A stretch of 35,635 nt of DNA, taken from assembly GCA_021841155.1 (NCBI GenBank), contig JAKBVU010000005.1, positions 1 to 35,635 of the forward strand, given 5' to 3'. The DNA comes from a bacterium (GTDB lineage Bacteria; Patescibacteriota; Saccharimonadia; Saccharimonadales; UBA4665). The position numbers were made by a program, and so were the translations under genes. The notes under the pieces were generated by a model. That model was not told the DNA's origin. It worked only from the letters and a program-made list of their open reading frames with translations, and searched no databases. The number at the start of each line of letters is the position of its first letter. Position 1 is the first letter of the stretch. Of this stretch, positions 24,244 through 34,097 are shown piece by piece.

Positions 24244-25875
24244 TTATAAGGACCCATAGCTCAGTTGGTTAGAGCACCTGCCTTTTAAGCAGGGTGTCGT
24301 GAGTTCAAGTCTCACTGGGTCCTCCACTACGACAAAATCTGCGTCTTCGGACGCTTTTTTAGTGCTTCCGTATCTGTAAACTAGGCTAATTTCTTGGGTG
24401 TAAACTTTTTTATCTTGAGTTACTGAAATTCCGCATGGAAATAAGATTTGTTTACACCGACTCATAACGGGCTTATCTAATATCCACCAATTCTGCTTCC
24501 AATTGTTGACATAATCGAGTGCGAAGTCTGTAAATTCAATCAGATCACGTTCAAAATCTTTAGCATTAATAGCAACTATCTCTGCTTCATGTATCTGTTG
24601 CTTTAATTTCTCAATTTCTTCCTTGATGTCTTCAGCTAAATCGGGATTATGAGATAACGATTGTATTAGCTCGCCCTTTTTATCCTTTAATACTTGTAGG
24701 CGTCCTTCAGCAATTTTAGATCTTTCTATTAACTCTGTTTCGTAGTTACGCCATATCTTTCTTAAATGTAGCTTTAATTTGTTTATTTGATCGTCTGTAA
24801 GAACTAAGCTATCAAGGATTTTATCAATTTCAGTGTGTAAATCATCTCGTAATATGTTTTTACCGCATTCTCGACAGCGATAACGGTTATAGTGATGAAG
24901 ATATTTACCTTTTTTACCGTTAGAATGTTTATATCCTACAAGTCTTGGATATTCCTTTTTCTTTTGTAGGCATTCGTAACACTCCATCTCATTAGACATG
25001 AGAAAGATCGGATTGTTGCGGTTAACTATAAACTTCTTACCCTTATTATCAGCTAGCTCACAAAGCTTTAAGTACTCTTCTTTAGTAATCATTTTATCGT
25101 GTAGGCCATTTTCGTTTATAACAGGCCAATCTACCATTTTAACTACTCCACAATAGTAGCTATCAGTCATTAGCTCCTTAAATCTATGCATATCTACAGG
25201 GTGACCACCTACAGCTCTCGGACCGTAATGACTGGTTACAAGTCCTAGTTTTGTTGCTAATTTAAGTCCCTCAGGAACAGTGCATTCTCCGTTGATCATA
25301 GCTCTGAACGCAGTCTGCATAGCTGACCAGATTGGTTCATTAGGTTCATGCAAACCCGGTATATCAGTTGTCTTATAACCAGTGTGTGGATTACTAGGAT
25401 AATAGCCAGCACGAATCTTAGCCATCATCTTTGGAGCCGTCTTCTCGATTCTTTCGTTATTACTTTGCTCTGCACGATATACATCAATTAACTCATCAAA
25501 AACGGCTCGGTCATCATCAGGATCTATGTCTGGACGGTTTGCTAATATTAAGCGCACGCCGATGTTTTGAAACTCCATTTTCCACCAGTAGTACTCATTT
25601 ATAGAGCGCATGAATCTATCGACCTCATCAACAATTAAGAATTTTACAGAACGATGAGATTTACAAAATTCTAGCATTTCGCGCAAGTCTTTACGTTTGC
25701 CGTTTTTACCCTTGCGGCTTGAGACTGCCAGTTTCCACCAATGGATAATTTCAACATCAAGTGTCTTCGCAGCACGAATAATCCGTTCTTCCTGTGGTTC
25801 TAAGTTCCCGTCTAGTAGCTGACCCATGGTGCTGACTCGACAGAGTGCTATGGCTTTAAGTTTGTTGTCTGACAT
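24244..25875 (-). CDS. Large serine recombinase (integrase)
   Basis: 543 residues. The resolvase N-terminal domain has the catalytic S15 in CRVST (R13, Q19) and the second arginine motif DRFMR (86-90). A recombinase domain follows (AGYYPSNPHTGYKT onward), then a zinc ribbon (C299, C302, C334, C337) and a coiled coil (about 380-435), the layout of large serine integrases. The last 27 codons or so (from residue 517) are read antisense through tRNA-Lys and those just before through its terminator. The natural C-terminus in the excised circle must therefore differ. AGG lies eight bases before the ATG, just after a terminator-like hairpin. It marks 24.3 kb onward as an integrated element. Confidence 0.92.
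   Translation of the reverse strand: MSDNKLKAIALCRVSTMGQLLDGNLEPQEERIIRAAKTLDVEIIHWWKLAVSSRKGKNGKRKDLREMLEFCKSHRSVKFLIVDEVDRFMRSINEYYWWKMEFQNIGVRLILANRPDIDPDDDRAVFDELIDVYRAEQSNNERIEKTAPKMMAKIRAGYYPSNPHTGYKTTDIPGLHEPNEPIWSAMQTAFRAMINGECTVPEGLKLATKLGLVTSHYGPRAVGGHPVDMHRFKELMTDSYYCGVVKMVDWPVINENGLHDKMITKEEYLKLCELADNKGKKFIVNRNNPIFLMSNEMECYECLQKKKEYPRLVGYKHSNGKKGKYLHHYNRYRCRECGKNILRDDLHTEIDKILDSLVLTDDQINKLKLHLRKIWRNYETELIERSKIAEGRLQVLKDKKGELIQSLSHNPDLAEDIKEEIEKLKQQIHEAEIVAINAKDFERDLIEFTDFALDYVNNWKQNWWILDKPVMSRCKQILFPCGISVTQDKKVYTQEISLVYRYGSTKKASEDADFVVVEDPVRLELTTPCLKGRCSNQLSYGSL
24250..24326 (+). tRNA. tRNA-Lys (TTT anticodon), integration target
   Basis: The acceptor stem GGACCCA/TGGGTCC, the anticodon stem CCTGC/GCAGG with loop CTTTTAA (anticodon TTT), and an encoded CCA (24324-24326). 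The discriminator base 73 is T (24323), unusual for a lysine tRNA. The whole gene lies antisense within the 3' end of the serine recombinase frame, as expected when an element has inserted next to or in a tRNA. Confidence 0.96.
24341..24360 (+). terminator. Rho-independent terminator of tRNA-Lys
   Basis: GCGTC-TTCG-GACGC (stem of five pairs closed by a UUCG-type tetraloop) followed by six T. It lies 14 bases after the tRNA and inside the recombinase frame on the other strand. Confidence 0.85.
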
Positions 25876-25886
25876 ATTTGCTACCT

Positions 25887-25935
25887 AAATAAAAAGCGGT
25901 CCTTGGGGAACCCTACGACAGGGAGCAAAGACCGC
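25887..25935 (-). terminator. Hairpin with T tract ahead of the recombinase
   Basis: On the minus strand GCGGTCTTTG (25926-25935) pairs with CAAGGACCGC (25896-25905) with one G-T wobble. A smaller CCCT/AGGG hairpin sits in the loop, and TTTTTATTT (25887-25895) follows. It ends about a dozen bases before the recombinase ATG, so it is either the terminator of the upstream genes or an attenuator of the recombinase. Confidence 0.7.
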
Positions 25936-26000
25936 CATTTATGCTGATTATTGATTGTTGTCGTATATTACCCATTTTTATTATCTAGCCTAAATGCTCA

Positions 26001-26564
26001 CTAATCACTGAATGGACCAGAAGTATCTACTACACAGAACTCAATATTTACAGCCATGGAATCTAGATTTTTGCCTAAATCGTTCCCTAAACCAGGATAA
26101 TCCTCTTCCTCTTTAGCTTTCTCTTCGGGGCTTAACGCAGCATACCAACGATAGTTTTGTTCTTCTGTGTGCATATCAATAAATCTGATATCATCGTCAG
26201 CAAATATTAGCTCAACACCGCTATGACTAAACGTTGATTCCCAATAGTAATATTCGACTATAGAGCCAAATACTTGCGGATAAGGGGCAATGATATATTT
26301 AATTCTGTCAGTATCTTTAAGCTTTGATCCACCACGAAGCTGGTTAGTGTCCAGGCAATACTCATACGCTTTTTGTAGTGCGATAGAACTACTTCGGCCA
26401 GTAGTTATACCAATTTGTTTCGCCCAAGCTAATATGTCTAAATTATTATTTTCAGCAAACTTGCTTATAAGTCGTTTCTGTTCACCTATACTTGGCTCAT
26501 CGTCATCTATGGCAGTTCCTACACTACAGTAAGCAATTGCCTTATCTTTATTTGCATTATCCAT
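26001..26564 (-). CDS. Catalytically dead resolvase-domain protein
   Basis: 187 residues that align along the N-terminal domain of the neighbouring recombinase: KAIAYC-V-T against KAIALC-V-T, then EQKRLI, LDI-W-K, DRIKYIIAP, and SIVEYYYWESTFSHSGVELI against SINEYYWWKMEFQNIGVRLI. Every catalytic residue is changed: the nucleophile Ser is Gly16, its Arg partner is Ser14, the Gln is lost, and DRFMR is PQVFG (96-100). There is no DNA-binding recombinase domain; the acidic tail (SPEEKAKEEEDYPG) is unrelated. It cannot cut DNA. It may pair with the active recombinase as an inhibitor or direction factor, which is inference. A good Shine-Dalgarno AGGAGA precedes the ATG. Confidence 0.75.
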   Translation of the reverse strand: MDNANKDKAIAYCSVGTAIDDDEPSIGEQKRLISKFAENNNLDILAWAKQIGITTGRSSSIALQKAYEYCLDTNQLRGGSKLKDTDRIKYIIAPYPQVFGSIVEYYYWESTFSHSGVELIFADDDIRFIDMHTEEQNYRWYAALSPEEKAKEEEDYPGLGNDLGKNLDSMAVNIEFCVVDTSGPFSD

Positions 26565-26577
26565 TGTCGTGATTCTC

Positions 26578-26742
26578 CTAAACTTTAATTAATGTTTTAT
26601 CTTCAGCCTTAACTTTTTCAATCTCAATAAGCTCCTTTCTTTTTCGATATTCCTCAAATAGAAAGGCAGCTAAATTATCAAAAGCTTCATCAAACTGCTT
26701 AGTTGACGTTTTTGTATTAGATTGAAGTGATACACTTTCCAC
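26578..26742 (-). CDS. Small charged helical protein of the recombinase region
   Basis: 54 residues if begun at GTG 26742; the frame also allows GTG 26763. The C-terminal two thirds is a charged, likely helical stretch (FDEAFDNLAAFLFEEYRKRK, then ELIEIEKVKAEDK). No family is recognised. It ends 13 bases before the dead resolvase and shares its direction, so the two probably form one transcript. No ATG start exists and the ribosome site is weak, so the start is uncertain. Confidence 0.45.
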   Translation of the reverse strand: MESVSLQSNTKTSTKQFDEAFDNLAAFLFEEYRKRKELIEIEKVKAEDKTLIKV

Positions 26743-27017
26743 AAGGAGTACCGTTCCTAGCACAGCTAATAAGACTTAAGCTATGTAAATAGTTAAGTTT
26801 AAGAGCTTTGCTTTTACTGGAACGCTACCACACCGCGCGCCTGTCTATATTGATCGATACAATATTCGTGGTCTTTAGTATTTGTTTAAGTATACGGAGT
26901 TGCTCGTGTATCTACGATAATGCAATCATAGCCTAACCTTTAGCGTCTTGCAAACAATATTAGATGTATTACTTACTACGTTATAAGGTGTTAAGGGGTA
27001 GATTTGCTAAAAATGTT

Positions 27018-27435: not shown

Positions 27436-29829
27436 TTGAGTCAAAAAGAAGCTTATTCCAGAGTCGTTATAGATCGTAAATTACGAGAGGCTGGTTGGGA
27501 TATTGAAGATCAAAATCAGGTTGTATTTGAAGATCATGGTAGCGCAGGTAGAGCGGACTATGTTCTTAAAGATAAAAGTGGTAAACCAATTGCATTAGTT
27601 GAAGCTAAGTCTCCTGACATTGATCCATATTCTGCAAAGCAACAAGCTCTTAATTACGTTGAAACTCAGTATAAAGGTCAGGTCGACTACATATACCTTG
27701 CTAACGACCATCTTATTTATTATTGGGACGTGGCTTCAGGCGACGCAGTACCTGTACCGGCATTTTTCTCTCAAGAAGACTTAGAGCGCAAAAGACATTC
27801 AGGCAGGATAGGTATAGTTGAACCCTTATTACAAAAAATAGTAGATAAAAATTACTTTAACGACATCGATTCAGCCATTGCGTTGCGACCGTACCAAATT
27901 AAAGCTTACGAAAGTATAGCTTCTGGTTATGACGAAGGTAAACGTAGCTTCTTACTAGAAATGGCTACTGGTACAGGAAAGACAGTTTTAGCGGCACTAG
28001 TCATTAGTAAGTTTTTACGAACTCACCAAGCTCAGACAGTTCTATTTGTAGTCGATCGTATTGAACTAGCCTCTCAAACTAAAGGTTCATTTGAACGGCT
28101 ATTAGGTAACTTATCTACGGTTGCTACCTATTGGGGAGGCTCTAAAAAGAATTTAACTGGCGCAAACGTGGTAATAGCGACCATACAATCTCTTGCTCAA
28201 CACGGAAAAGATACTTTTTCATCAGGCTACTTCGATCTAGTTATCCACGATGAAGCACACCGCAGTATCTACAGCCCACAAGCTCGTTTAGCTATGGATT
28301 ATTATGTTGGAGCTACTAGGATTGGGCTAACTGCAACACCAAGAGACTTTTTGAAGAATATAGACATTGAAGATTTATCCATTAATGATCCAAGAGCTGT
28401 AGAAGCTCGTATACAGCGAGATACATATCGTTATTTTGGTTGTGAAGATGGAAATGCTACTTTCCGTTATACCATTCAAGACGGTGTGCGAGATGGTTAT
28501 TTAATCCCACCAAAACTTCACAAGATGAATACTGTCCTAACGCAAGCTGCATTGAGCGATCAAGGGCTTGTACTTAGCGAAGAAGATATCGAAGGAGAAA
28601 ACTACAAAATCCGTGATCTAGAAAAGAAGGTATATTTACCAGAACGCAATAAAGCGATGATGACTGAGTTTCTAGAGTATGCAGAGAAAAATAATCGCAA
28701 TGAAATCGGTAAAACAATCGTGTTTGCAGTATCGCAACGACACGCTTTTGAATTAGAAAAAGTTCTAAATGCCATGCACCCTGAATATAACGGTAGATTT
28801 GCTAAGTCAATAACAAGTAAAGTTACCGGAGCAAGAGATATTGCCAGAGACTTCAGAAACCCTGATATTCAACTACCTCGTATTGCGGTGTCAGTAGATA
28901 TGCTTACTACTGGTTATGACGCTCCTGAAGTGCAGAACATAGTTCTCGCTCGTCCAGTCTTTGAACCTACTACATATCAGCAAATAAAAGGTCGTGGAAC
29001 TAGATTGTGTGAAGAAATTGGTAAGAAGCAATTTGTAATGTTTGATTTCTGTGGGGTGTGCGAATATTTCGATGAGCAATATGATTGGGAGGCGCCACTT
29101 GCTTTACCTAAGAGTGAAGCACTGGCTTCTGCAAACCAAGCTCAAGAATACGAAGCTTCACTATCAGCTAGTATTGATAATAATGTAGCAACTGATCAGA
29201 CAGTTGGTGCAGTTAAAACTGATCCACTAACTTCACATACAGCTGATATGGTTAGTACTCGTGATTTTATAGAAGTGGGTCCTGAGGGAGATAAAGTCGA
29301 CAGAGAAATGTATAAGGAAGAATGGACAAACGCAGTGCGGACATTCGTGGGAGAACACCCTGAAGTTGAATCTATGATTGATGACGAAGATAAAACCGAA
29401 GAACTACTTGAACTTATAAACAGTGAACTTCTTAATCGCCCTAAGCATTACTTTAACGAAGAAAATTTGATAAATTCACACAGAGTAATCGCTTCAATTA
29501 AAGACTTTTTATTATCTGCACTTGATAAAAAACCTTTACCACAACGCGAAGAACAATTAGACCAATGGCGAGACGGAATGATTGAGAAGTTTGGCAAGAA
29601 ACAAGGCGCCACACAAAGACGGGTGTTGATGGTGGATATGATTGCTACTGAAGTAGTACAGGACAATAACTTGAGAAATGCTATTCAGCAATCACCGAGT
29701 ATAAGTTTTCTGCAAGACGAACCATTTAATCAGGGTTACACTGTGCGTGAATGGCTAGATACTTTTGGTAAGGACGAGCTAGAAGACATCGTCTCCGATA
29801 TTAACAGTAATAGGTTACTTAAAGTCTAA
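27436..29829 (+). CDS. hsdR: Type I restriction enzyme subunit R
   Basis: The DNA-translocating and cutting subunit of a type I restriction-modification system, 797 residues, in the range of the EcoEI-like group. The N-terminal nuclease domain shows D41 (GRADYVL), E56-A-K58 and QQALNYVE. The helicase core has Walker A MATGTGKT (176-183), DEAH (272-275), GLTATP, and later MLTTGYDAPEV and QIKGRGTRLC. A C-terminal helical part binds the methylase complex. The start is TTG 27436 after GGA; the nearby ATG is out of frame. hsdMS follows after one base. The coding is less AT-rich than the host genes to the left. Confidence 0.95.
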   Translation: MSQKEAYSRVVIDRKLREAGWDIEDQNQVVFEDHGSAGRADYVLKDKSGKPIALVEAKSPDIDPYSAKQQALNYVETQYKGQVDYIYLANDHLIYYWDVASGDAVPVPAFFSQEDLERKRHSGRIGIVEPLLQKIVDKNYFNDIDSAIALRPYQIKAYESIASGYDEGKRSFLLEMATGTGKTVLAALVISKFLRTHQAQTVLFVVDRIELASQTKGSFERLLGNLSTVATYWGGSKKNLTGANVVIATIQSLAQHGKDTFSSGYFDLVIHDEAHRSIYSPQARLAMDYYVGATRIGLTATPRDFLKNIDIEDLSINDPRAVEARIQRDTYRYFGCEDGNATFRYTIQDGVRDGYLIPPKLHKMNTVLTQAALSDQGLVLSEEDIEGENYKIRDLEKKVYLPERNKAMMTEFLEYAEKNNRNEIGKTIVFAVSQRHAFELEKVLNAMHPEYNGRFAKSITSKVTGARDIARDFRNPDIQLPRIAVSVDMLTTGYDAPEVQNIVLARPVFEPTTYQQIKGRGTRLCEEIGKKQFVMFDFCGVCEYFDEQYDWEAPLALPKSEALASANQAQEYEASLSASIDNNVATDQTVGAVKTDPLTSHTADMVSTRDFIEVGPEGDKVDREMYKEEWTNAVRTFVGEHPEVESMIDDEDKTEELLELINSELLNRPKHYFNEENLINSHRVIASIKDFLLSALDKKPLPQREEQLDQWRDGMIEKFGKKQGATQRRVLMVDMIATEVVQDNNLRNAIQQSPSISFLQDEPFNQGYTVREWLDTFGKDELEDIVSDINSNRLLKV

Positions 29830-29830
29830 T

Positions 29831-32359
29831 ATGTCTACATTTTTTAGCACTGGTTTAAACAAAAAAATAGACGCTCTAATGGATCGTCTGTTTGGTGCTG
29901 GTGTTGCCAGTCATGCGACTATTATCGAGCAAATTAACTACCTAATGTTTTTACGAGCGCTAACTTCTCATGATGACGAGGCTAAACTTTTAAATCCTGA
30001 TCACGAGGAAATCTTTAAAGGTGAACTGGCAAAATATAGATGGGACAATTTACTAATGCTTAATGCCGAAGTTCTATTTGATACTTTGGAGGAAGCCTAC
30101 CGTAAACTACCTGAGTTAACGACCGATAAAACTGTAGCCTTACTGTTTCGTAATGCTCACATAAAAGTTTACGACAAGCCTACGTTACGCGTTCTGCTTC
30201 ACGAAATAGAAAAACTGGTTACAGAACTTGATGACGTAGCTAGGCATGGATCGAAAGACATTTTTGGAGATATGTACGAGTATCTACTTTCAAAGCTTGC
30301 ACAAGCTGGCACAAACGGTCAGTTCAGAACACCACGACATATTATTAAATTCATATTAGATGTAGTTGATCCTGAAAAAGGCGAAACAATACTCGACCCT
30401 GCTTGTGGAACAGCTGGATTCTTAGTAGCTGCCTTAGATCACTTACGACATAAATATAGTTCAGAGCGGTTTATAAAAGATGGTGCGTTTCCAATGGATA
30501 AGCTAACAGGTAATGAACGAGACTTTATCTTTAATCACGCATTCACGGGTTTTGATAGTGATGAGGATATGGTTAAGTTCGGCGTCATGAATCTATTCCT
30601 TCACAACCTAAGCAATGCCAGCATTAAACGACAAAATACGCTGGTTGATACAGCAGGAGATAGAACCAAATGGGACGTAATACTTGCTAATCCACCATTT
30701 GCAGGAAAGATTGAACCCGAAAGTGTTTCTGAAGATTTGCGTATGGGAACAAGAGCAACAGAAGTTCTATTTGTACGTTACATGATAGATCACCTATCCT
30801 CAAAAGGGAAAGCTGGAATTATTGTCCCAGAAGGAGTTATATTCCAATCAACGAATGCTCATAAGCAACTCAGGCAAAAATTGGTTGACGCTGGTTTATG
30901 GTGCGTAGTTAGTTTACCTTCTGGAGTATTCCAGCCATATAGTGGAGTTAAGACATCGATTCTATTTATTGATAAGGATCTGGCGAGTAAGTTTAATCGG
31001 ATTATGTTCTTAACAATTAATTCAGATGGTTTTGATCTTAGTGCTAACCGACGATCTATTTTACAGAATGATTTACCAAATGCCTTGAAGCTTATTCAGT
31101 ACTGTAAAAAAGAGATTGAAGCAAGACACATTAGAGATAACTATTACTTTCCTTTCGAGGATTCAGATCACTCAATAAGCATTGCACCACTCCTTTATTC
31201 GTTCGAAAAGGTAAGTAGAATCAATGAGGAAGAAGATATAACACTACAATCGGAACGCTATAAAGTCAGAGAAGTCGGTAATCAAAGGTGGCCTTTGATC
31301 GAGCTTGAAAAGTTACTAGATTACGAACAGCCGACAAATTATATTGTTCAAACTACAGATTACAGTAATAAATACACAACCCCCGTCTTAACTGCAGGAA
31401 AAAGTTTTATATTGGGATATACGAATGAAAAAATCGGAGTATATGATAAAAGACTACCCGTTATCATTTTTGATGATTTTACAACTGCGACAAAACTCGT
31501 TGACTTTAACTTTAAAGTAAAATCTTCTGCGATGAAAATACTCCAAGCAAGAACTTCAGATATCGATATTAGTTACGTTTACTATGCTATGCAGAATATT
31601 GATTTTAAGCCAAAAGAGCATAAACGTTTTTGGATCTCACAGTATTGTAAGTTCAAGATTCCTGTGCCACCTATTGATATACAAAGACAAGTTACAATTG
31701 AATTAGATAATTATCAAAAAGTTATAAATACTACTAGACAATTAATAAGTTTATTTAAACCATCGTTTCAAATAAATCCTAAGTGGGAAAGCCGAAAACT
31801 TAAAGAACTGGCAACTATTACATCTAGTAAAAGGATATTTCAATCAGACTACGTTAATAAGGGCGTGCCGTTCTTCAGGACCAAAGAAATAGCAGAACTT
31901 GAGCTTGGTAAGAAAATTTCGACTGAGTTGTTTATAAGCGAAGAAAAATATAGAGAAATATCAGCTAGTTTTGGTAAGCCTGTTGCCAATGATATTTTAG
32001 TTTCAGCTGTAGGCACAATCGGTAAGGTGTGGCGTATACCAGAGGGCTTTTATGATTTTTACTTTAAGGATGGCAATCTTCTTTGGTTAAAAGATATCAA
32101 AGATCTTGTGTTACCAGAATATCTAGAAGTAGTAACTCGTAGCTTACTAGTTAATCAAACAATGTCTGCAGGTGCCGCATACCAAGCACTAACAATTGTT
32201 AAATTTAAAGAATTGGAAATTCCTATAGCACCGATGGACGAACAGAAACAAGTCGTGGCTCAATTTAACAAAGAGCAACAGATCATTAATTCCAATAAAG
32301 ACCTCATTAAAATATACGAAGACAAGGTTAATTCAAAAATTAACGAACTATGGGCTTAG
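29831..32359 (+). CDS. Fused type I methyltransferase-specificity subunit (HsdM-HsdS)
   Basis: 842 residues joining two subunits that are normally separate. Residues 1 to about 480 form HsdM: an N-terminal helical domain, SAM motif DPACGTAGFL (189-198) and catalytic NPPF (287-290), which marks an adenine N6-methyltransferase. From about 487 two target-recognition regions follow. The first begins WPLIELEKLLDYEQPTNYIV and the second, near 651, KWESRKLKELATI. Each ends in an IPxPPID/IPIAPMDEQ segment with a helical spacer. The two regions read the two halves of a bipartite target; the site itself cannot be read here. The gene is coupled to hsdR (one base) and to the AlbA_2 gene (three bases). 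Confidence 0.92.
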   Translation: MSTFFSTGLNKKIDALMDRLFGAGVASHATIIEQINYLMFLRALTSHDDEAKLLNPDHEEIFKGELAKYRWDNLLMLNAEVLFDTLEEAYRKLPELTTDKTVALLFRNAHIKVYDKPTLRVLLHEIEKLVTELDDVARHGSKDIFGDMYEYLLSKLAQAGTNGQFRTPRHIIKFILDVVDPEKGETILDPACGTAGFLVAALDHLRHKYSSERFIKDGAFPMDKLTGNERDFIFNHAFTGFDSDEDMVKFGVMNLFLHNLSNASIKRQNTLVDTAGDRTKWDVILANPPFAGKIEPESVSEDLRMGTRATEVLFVRYMIDHLSSKGKAGIIVPEGVIFQSTNAHKQLRQKLVDAGLWCVVSLPSGVFQPYSGVKTSILFIDKDLASKFNRIMFLTINSDGFDLSANRRSILQNDLPNALKLIQYCKKEIEARHIRDNYYFPFEDSDHSISIAPLLYSFEKVSRINEEEDITLQSERYKVREVGNQRWPLIELEKLLDYEQPTNYIVQTTDYSNKYTTPVLTAGKSFILGYTNEKIGVYDKRLPVIIFDDFTTATKLVDFNFKVKSSAMKILQARTSDIDISYVYYAMQNIDFKPKEHKRFWISQYCKFKIPVPPIDIQRQVTIELDNYQKVINTTRQLISLFKPSFQINPKWESRKLKELATITSSKRIFQSDYVNKGVPFFRTKEIAELELGKKISTELFISEEKYREISASFGKPVANDILVSAVGTIGKVWRIPEGFYDFYFKDGNLLWLKDIKDLVLPEYLEVVTRSLLVNQTMSAGAAYQALTIVKFKELEIPIAPMDEQKQVVAQFNKEQQIINSNKDLIKIYEDKVNSKINELWA

Positions 32360-32362
32360 TCT

Positions 32363-33034
32363 ATGATAACTCCAACTGATCCAGATAATGTTATCCAGGG
32401 TATCTTACTAAGCCCTAATGAAACCAGATCCGTAGAATTAAAGCCCTGTATGGATTGGCCTTCAGATAGGACTGCACTTCAGAATCATCTCAAAGCACAA
32501 GAAATTATTGTTAGTATCTTAGCGATGTCAAACACCGCAGACGGCGGATTGATTATTGTTGGAGTTAAAAAGGACACAGAGGGAAAGTACTCTCTTGAGG
32601 GCGTTAAGGAGGAGAGCCTAGCTACTTATGATCAAGATAATATATTCGAACAAGTTAGAAGTTGCGGTGACCCAGAACCTCAATTTGAAGTATTAAATAT
32701 TGCTTATGAATCTAAGAATTATATTGTTTTTGATGTTAAGAGTTTTGCTTTTACTCCGATAGTTAGTCGTAACTCAAAAAATTTACCGAAACTAGATTCT
32801 GGGTTTATGTACATACGAACATTTAAGCCTGAATCAAAGAAAGCAGTAACACCAACTGATGTTAGAAGCATAGTAGATTTATCGGTCGAAAAAGAACTTA
32901 CAGCTTTTTCTTCCAGAGTCCAGAATCTTATAAGTAATGGTCAATTGCTACTACCATCGCAAGAGCAGGTTCAACCTAACAGTAAGGATAATGCCTCATT
33001 CAATGAAGAGTTAGAGGATCTTAAAAATGGATAA
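32363..33034 (+). CDS. Schlafen/AlbA_2-type domain protein in the restriction operon
   Basis: 223 residues. The N-terminal two thirds matches the AlbA_2 putative nucleic-acid-binding domain: an ExK strand (SVELKPCMDW), then IIVSILAMSNTADGGLIIVG with the glycine-rich turn, and a later strand FMYIRTFKPESKKAVTP. Related Schlafen-type domains bind or cut RNA or DNA. Whether this one is active is unknown. The C-terminal 60 residues are helical and end in a polar tail. It starts three bases after hsdMS and overlaps the next gene by eight bases, so it belongs to the restriction operon. It may be a defence add-on or a guard module. Confidence 0.7.
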   Translation: MITPTDPDNVIQGILLSPNETRSVELKPCMDWPSDRTALQNHLKAQEIIVSILAMSNTADGGLIIVGVKKDTEGKYSLEGVKEESLATYDQDNIFEQVRSCGDPEPQFEVLNIAYESKNYIVFDVKSFAFTPIVSRNSKNLPKLDSGFMYIRTFKPESKKAVTPTDVRSIVDLSVEKELTAFSSRVQNLISNGQLLLPSQEQVQPNSKDNASFNEELEDLKNG

Positions 33035-34097
33035 GAAAGCACTAATATTAAAAATTAAAGGCGGCGGGTATTGGGAAGTTAATATTAGACCCGTTGTATA
33101 CCCTGAGACTAAGCTAACTCACCCACGATTAAAGTCATTAACACAAGAGTCAGTAGTGACGTTAAGGGGTTGGGATTATCCGCATTATCGTGATAGGAAC
33201 GGAGAGCCGGTTAATATTCAAAATGGCATAGAAAAATACACGGACTTCGATGATATAGGTGCTTATGAACTTTGGCGTATGACAATGTCGGGTAACTTTT
33301 ACCATATATTCGGTTTAACGGAGGATCATTTCGATCGCGCATATGATAGTTACTACACGAGAGGTGAATCCGCAAAAGACAAAAGAGTTCTTAGTGTATG
33401 GGGTACTTTATATACGTTGACAGAGATTTTCGAGTTTGCAAGGCGATTAGCCCTCAAAGATTTATTCGGTAAGCAGATTTACATTGACGTTAGTCTTCAT
33501 TCAATACAGGATAGAGAACTTATTGTAGATAACAGTCAAAAAATACCTTTTTCATACTCACGAAAGTCAGTTGAATATTCCTGGAGCAATAAACAAAAAA
33601 TATATCAGACCAAAAACTTTATAAATTCATCGTCTGACATTTCTTTTGAAGCATTTATTGACTTAATGGCTCTTTTTCAATGGGACAATCCACCCATAAG
33701 CAATCTTAAGGACGATCAATTAAAATTTTTAAAAGTTCCAGCAACTACAGAACAAATACCTGAAATAACTTTGCAGATAAATGGTCAAGCAAATAAAAAC
33801 AATCTTGAATTAGGTTTTGTAAACCAGTCTGGTAGAAACCTGGTGATAGAATCAATAGAAGTTGACGGAGCTAAGACAATATTCAACCAGCAGTTCCTTA
33901 AACTTTTTAAACCAGGGAGTATAGAAACGCCTACAGGTATATTTGACGAACCTCGTGACGCGGTATCTATAAGAGTAATATACAGAACGCTCGATAATAG
34001 AATATATGAGCTAACTCAAAAAGGAATCCAAGAATCAAGGGCTGACGGACGCTTTAATATTATATTTCCATCCCCATCATCAATAAAAGCTATTTAA
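33027..34097 (+). CDS. Unrecognised protein, last gene of the restriction operon
   Basis: 356 residues with no motif I can assign. The N-terminal half is rich in aromatic residues (GGGYWEVNIRPVVYPETK, then VVTLRGWDYPHYRDR) and a helical stretch WGTLYTLTEIFEFARRL. The C-terminal third looks like a beta-sandwich (ITLQINGQANKNNLELGFVN, SIRVIYRTLDNRIYEL). No membrane helix or signal peptide is seen, so it is probably cytosolic. The ATG lies inside the end of the AlbA_2 gene (eight-base overlap), so both should be made in a fixed ratio and may form a complex. A new accessory component of a defence operon is my leading guess. Confidence 0.6.
   Translation: MDKKALILKIKGGGYWEVNIRPVVYPETKLTHPRLKSLTQESVVTLRGWDYPHYRDRNGEPVNIQNGIEKYTDFDDIGAYELWRMTMSGNFYHIFGLTEDHFDRAYDSYYTRGESAKDKRVLSVWGTLYTLTEIFEFARRLALKDLFGKQIYIDVSLHSIQDRELIVDNSQKIPFSYSRKSVEYSWSNKQKIYQTKNFINSSSDISFEAFIDLMALFQWDNPPISNLKDDQLKFLKVPATTEQIPEITLQINGQANKNNLELGFVNQSGRNLVIESIEVDGAKTIFNQQFLKLFKPGSIETPTGIFDEPRDAVSIRVIYRTLDNRIYELTQKGIQESRADGRFNIIFPSPSSIKAI

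Follow-up and report, generated by a model that had tools for sequence, protein, structure and literature searches.

A recurrent serine-less companion of large serine integrases in Saccharibacteria, and its possible role in restraining integrase assembly

Introduction

Why should an element encode, directly upstream of its integrase, a second protein that resembles the integrase's catalytic domain and yet has lost the residues with which such enzymes cut DNA? The question is raised by a 35,635-nucleotide stretch of DNA from a minute parasitic bacterium of the Saccharibacteria (hereafter the window), in which the following features can be placed:

24244-25875, minus strand: large serine recombinase (LSR), 543 aa, with R13, S15 and D86-R87-R90 intact, a C-rich zinc region and a coiled coil
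24250-24326, plus strand: tRNA-Lys(TTT) gene, the integration target, whose antisense strand encodes the 3' end of the integrase ORF
25890-25938, minus strand: terminator-like hairpin with a T-tract between the companion and integrase genes, oriented along their transcription
26001-26564, minus strand: companion protein, 187 aa, a serine-less, catalytic-domain-only serine recombinase homologue (translation, BLASTP, alignment, AlphaFold, Foldseek)
26575-26579, minus strand: Shine-Dalgarno AGGAG of the companion gene, 10 nt before its ATG (sequence TTTAGGAGAATCACGACAATG)
26578-26763, minus strand: small ORF of up to 61 aa, with an alternative internal GTG at 26742, from a family encoded upstream of many related LSRs
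27436-34097, plus strand: probable cargo, comprising a type I restriction HsdR, an HsdM-HsdS fusion, a Schlafen AlbA_2 protein and an unknown 356-aa protein

Results

The companion has a recombinase-like predicted fold and a degenerate active site

Translation of the companion ORF bears out the earlier sequence-only reading of this DNA, which had described a 187-residue protein aligning with the catalytic domain of the neighbouring integrase and bearing Ser14, Gly16 and PQVFG at its active site. BLASTP between the two gave E=1e-9 and 28% identity over 122 aa. In the alignment, C-R-V-S-T of the integrase is matched by C-S-V-G-T, and S14, G16 and PYPQVFGS of the companion are the counterparts of integrase R13, S15 and VDRFMRS. 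The DNA-binding domain is missing from the 187 aa, as had also been noticed, and nothing beyond residue ~155 resembles a recombinase or zinc domain. Since the companion gave no match to the Pfam Resolvase model above chance level and only a weak match to integrase in PHROGs (E=0.0054), the case for its homology is made by the pairwise hit, the predicted structure and the relatives described below.

An AlphaFold model built on a 46-row alignment reached a mean pLDDT of 74, exceeding 90 in parts of the core and falling to low confidence over the last ~30 residues. Its best PDB matches by Foldseek were serine-recombinase catalytic domains (3guv, 3bvp from the TP901-1 integrase, and IS607 TnpA), and an earlier four-row model matched the same family. 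By this predicted resolvase-type alpha/beta catalytic fold, the companion belongs to the serine recombinase superfamily. It is not expected to be an enzyme, lacking the nucleophilic Ser, the Arg two residues earlier and the DR..R motif, and it is no large serine recombinase, having neither recombinase nor zinc-ribbon DNA-binding domains in its 187 aa. The ORF is more than a chance one, because shuffling the gene left the frame open in 0 of 20,000 trials and because another genus has a counterpart in an equivalent position. On its sequence and predicted structure, then, the companion is a pseudo-recombinase, which appears to have kept the catalytic-domain fold and lost both active site and DNA-binding domains.

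The adjacent integrase and its tRNA target

The window integrase matches Pfam Resolvase at 8e-14 and, given its intact catalytic residues, is probably active; no other intact serine recombinase turned up in the host genome assembly. The 3' end of its ORF (24244-24326) is the antisense of the target tRNA-Lys gene, giving the tail LELTTPCLKGRCSNQLSYG, and integration there would alter the C-terminus of the integrase. Antisense-tRNA 3' ends are also found at G407 and G331 (L020:10820-10896; L027:3232-3308), and tRNA-like tails end several other Saccharibacteria LSRs. Rfam detected only the tRNA in the window, plus one antisense tRNA artefact, and neither the window nor the genome, whose assembly is fragmented, yielded a repeat of the tRNA 3' end that would mark the far attachment site.

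The hairpin between the two genes has an 11-bp stem in both the MFE and centroid structures, with a z-score of -1.2 for the whole spacer. A terminator scan picked out its inner part (25912-25898) but performs no better than chance here, since shuffled sequences yielded as many terminator-like sites. The hairpin lies ~15 nt upstream of the integrase start and carries CCCTACGACAGGG in its apical part, which has CTACGACA in common with the sequence immediately past the tRNA (24327-24334). Among the probable cargo, HsdM and an HsdS-like specificity region are fused into one 842-aa protein (29831-32359), which is encoded next to HsdR and on the same side of the tRNA as the LSR. Near the element genes of G407, L020:4607-6631 encodes a protein of 674 aa that has two C-5 cytosine methylase domains.

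Companions recur beside integrases across Saccharibacteria

The sequence-only reading had proposed searching Saccharibacteria for the gene pair. We searched 393 genomes of the class, followed by a profile search and an inspection of the upstream DNA at about 115 LSRs; since sampling was non-random and partly guided by similarity to the companion, the resulting count is not a frequency. The pair was found: serine-less, mostly catalytic-domain-only ORFs occur at seven other loci, of which six have the ORF directly upstream of an LSR, so that with the window included the companion adjoins an LSR at 7 of 8 loci.

The counterpart in G407, a different genus, is a 157-aa protein lying upstream of an LSR that is 66% identical to that of the window, with a tRNA-Lys(TTT) gene at the end of each LSR frame. 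Its Ser is replaced by Ala, with the Arg and DRLARS kept. G389 and G229 each carry two companions as overlapping tandem pairs, in which Arg has become Asn or Ser and Ser has become Leu or Phe (the motif of these four proteins was placed by eye); in the genus of G389, these two are the only ones of 174 genomes with this type. In G108 the companion (Ser to Asn) is 257 aa long and retains a portion of the recombinase domain. The companions of G108b and G131 are one identical sequence (Ser to Ala), counted once, and the G154 companion (Ser to Val) is an orphan with no LSR in the surrounding 15 kb. G293 has a truncated copy, a 76-aa fragment. The earlier suggestion that the Ser-to-Gly change might be conserved thus holds for the loss of the nucleophile and not for Gly itself, the replacements being Gly, Ala, Asn, Val, Leu and Phe. 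The closest LSR relative without a companion, in G331, uses the same tRNA-Lys site and has a small ORF.

When genome contigs were scanned with the LSR pair, only the G407 contig matched (JAICKY010000005.1, Candidatus Saccharibacteria). Scans of viral contigs with the companion, the LSR pair and the companion alignments gave no relatives, nor did tblastn against phages and plasmids.

Several candidates were set aside. A second one in G154 was spurious, and short Ser-positive ORFs at L038 and L065 look like broken or contig-edge LSRs. Tandem overlapping recombinase genes at L072, L075, L080, L090, L104, L106 and L107, in seven genomes of one genus, were rejected as further cases because both members (the first of ~450-525 aa, the second of ~435-565 aa) keep Ser, with Arg likewise intact. 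Two other observations concern further loci: L120 and L121, in different species-level genomes, share 4,156 identical bases including the companion and the LSR start, through either recent transfer or contamination, and at L037:4383-7001 (G232:C12) the LSR lies in a 954-aa open frame that runs well past the usual end.

Companion frames stay open while the active site is lost

All nine companions with a readable N-terminal motif lack the Ser. Of 116 distinct intact recombinases none does; these all keep both Arg and Ser, and one Gln and three further Arg columns are invariant in them too. R52 is lost in 8 of 9 companions and Q12 in all five aligned at that column, while the fold columns A1, L55 and G97 are mostly kept. 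Companion frames are open and are preceded by good Shine-Dalgarno sites. In every companion pair the fewest changes fall at codon position 2, a result that protein-guided alignment somewhat favours. A genuinely decayed LSR in G234 (L046) presents the reverse picture, with broken frames and an intact active site. At G389 and G229 each companion frame overlaps the next gene and at G108b the companion abuts the LSR, implying coupled synthesis. What might have told against the sequence-only reading, namely homologues with intact catalytic residues, frequent frameshifts or a lack of co-occurrence with serine integrases, was for the most part not seen, with the truncated copy in G293 and the orphan in G154 as the exceptions. 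Taken together, recurring dead partners beside integrases suggest a selected regulator of DNA mobility and not a broken gene. The window and G407 companions are only 33% identical, as compared with 75% for the catalytic domains of their LSRs; the companion thus evolves much faster than the LSR, which also fits weak constraint.

Trees reject descent of the window companion from its own integrase

In the tree, the window and G407 companions group together (93/84), outside the clade of their LSRs, and by sequence the two are a fast-evolving lineage. Holding them with their own LSRs was rejected with two taxon sets (AU p=0.0005 and 0.0004), as was an own-LSR origin of the shorter-branched G407 companion alone with a third (p=0.003). 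The proposed origin by duplication of the integrase itself is rejected for this pair on these tests. For the G389 and G229 companions, origin from their own LSR was not rejected (p=0.23), and neither was a single clade of all nine companions (p=0.24). All these tests are limited by long branches and by the fact that the companions have lost the same residues.

A small ORF family precedes many related LSRs

The small ORF, whose family motif resembles FLYELYK, precedes the LSRs of the window, G407, G331, G389 and G229 and of about ten other related loci (L009, L008, L013, L027, L037, L039 and L041 are among the loci at which the family was seen). In the search for it, 16 of 52 matches had E<=0.01, a few rows being redundant. 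The gene order is small ORF-companion-LSR in the window versus companion-small ORF-LSR in G407. The small protein is a candidate recombination directionality factor (RDF) or regulator, and a better RDF candidate than the companion.

Discussion

What, then, might the companion do? Since its gene is coupled to that of the LSR and its fold has been kept while DNA binding and catalysis have been lost, action by contact with the LSR would fit. Our leading reading, which we hold tentatively and at somewhat less than even probability, is that the companion attaches to the catalytic domain of the LSR and holds assembly back, much as a truncated-transposase inhibitor does. Encoded in one cluster with the integrase, it would dock either on the LSR catalytic domain or on the oligomerisation helix and, since it could neither cut nor hold att DNA, would lower the formation of productive LSR dimers or tetramers. 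The outcome would be a dose-dependent, dominant-negative brake, which would keep the integrated element stable or block a second insertion. As a guess, the window hairpin, if real, could let the companion exceed the LSR in amount, as a brake requires. Isolated Sin catalytic domains (5c31, 3pkz) assemble into tetramers without their DNA-binding domains, and we infer a brake from the recurrence upstream of LSRs, the loss of Ser, the open frames and the coupled genes. Against it, companions are rare (the 2 of 174 genomes above), so that the LSR does not need one; several are without most of helix E, the usual oligomerisation helix; they evolve fast, and the G154 copy has no LSR nearby. Matching interfaces cannot be assumed either, given the companion's origin outside the lineage of its own LSR. 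More tentatively still, these dead serine-recombinase domains may be an unrecognised family that forms a built-in LSR switch in Saccharibacteria elements, with coupled amounts setting when and whether recombination occurs.

Other readings account for parts of these data. The rapid evolution, the truncated and orphan copies and the rarity would all be expected of a functionless, decaying remnant of a second recombinase, which we nevertheless consider unlikely, because every readable copy has lost Ser and yet frames remain open and Shine-Dalgarno sites persist, because conservation is highest at codon position 2 in all pairs, and because the decayed LSR of G234 took the opposite course. It is similarly doubtful that the companion is a positive accessory subunit, joining the LSR synaptic complex for a particular reaction or topology, for example by stabilising a heteromeric synapse: gene coupling, the preserved fold and the tandem pairs at G389 and G229 are in keeping with such a role, but fast evolution is unusual for an obligate subunit and the companion-free LSR of G331 uses the same tRNA site. 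An origin outside the adjacent LSR's lineage and the orphan in G154 would suit a domain that the element has recruited to some other task, such as binding the small ORF product or serving as a decoy against other recombinases or host factors, and not acting on the LSR; adjacency to an LSR at all but one locus, with overlapping frames at two, makes this rather improbable.

Lowest of all we place the direction-factor role raised by the sequence-only reading, in which the companion would act as an RDF that switches the LSR to excision. The companion is encoded in the element beside the LSR, and RDF sequences are very diverse (PMC5814800), but an RDF should be separable from its integrase, and companion genes overlap or directly precede the LSR, so that both proteins would be made together. 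In C. difficile, by comparison, the RDF is expressed apart from a constitutive LSR (PMC5025042). The characterised RDFs gp3 and gp44 act at the zinc/coiled-coil region of the LSR (PMC5814800), and many related LSRs are preceded by the separate small ORF, which G331 has without any companion.

The preferred reading, a brake on assembly, can be set beside several known systems. The companion has its catalytic fold and sequence ancestry in common with LSRs (PF00239 plus recombinase and zinc domains; phiC31, Bxb1, TP901-1, XisF), from which companions differ in having no nucleophile and no recombinase or zinc domain, the part retained in G108 excepted, so that DNA cutting is not expected of them. 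Like the RDFs phiC31 gp3, A118 gp44 and C. difficile CD1234, it is element-encoded and possibly an LSR partner; its expression logic differs from theirs, and we know of no serine-recombinase fold in any of the three. A functional analogy may be drawn with truncated-transposase inhibitors such as Tn5 Inh, in that an inactive partial relative of a recombinase could poison oligomers. Tn5 Inh is a product of the transposase gene itself, whereas the companion has a gene of its own that is distantly related to that of the LSR. Rows of several serine recombinase genes, as here, are also seen in the triplet integrases of streptococcal ICEs (PMC4701971) and in the tandem Saccharibacteria pairs. Those proteins are full-length, however, and the conserved serine, reported in all the streptococcal ICE integrases studied (PMC4701971) and kept in the Saccharibacteria pairs, is what companions lack. 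Our survey, which covered the open literature, met with no published account of such an LSR partner. What is known of the control of serine integrases comes mainly from RDFs that act on the C-terminal coiled coil; a partner consisting of a dead catalytic domain, if borne out, would mark a different control point, the assembly of the catalytic core, and could offer an off-switch for integrase tools, an idea that recurrence with the nucleophile always lost makes directly testable.
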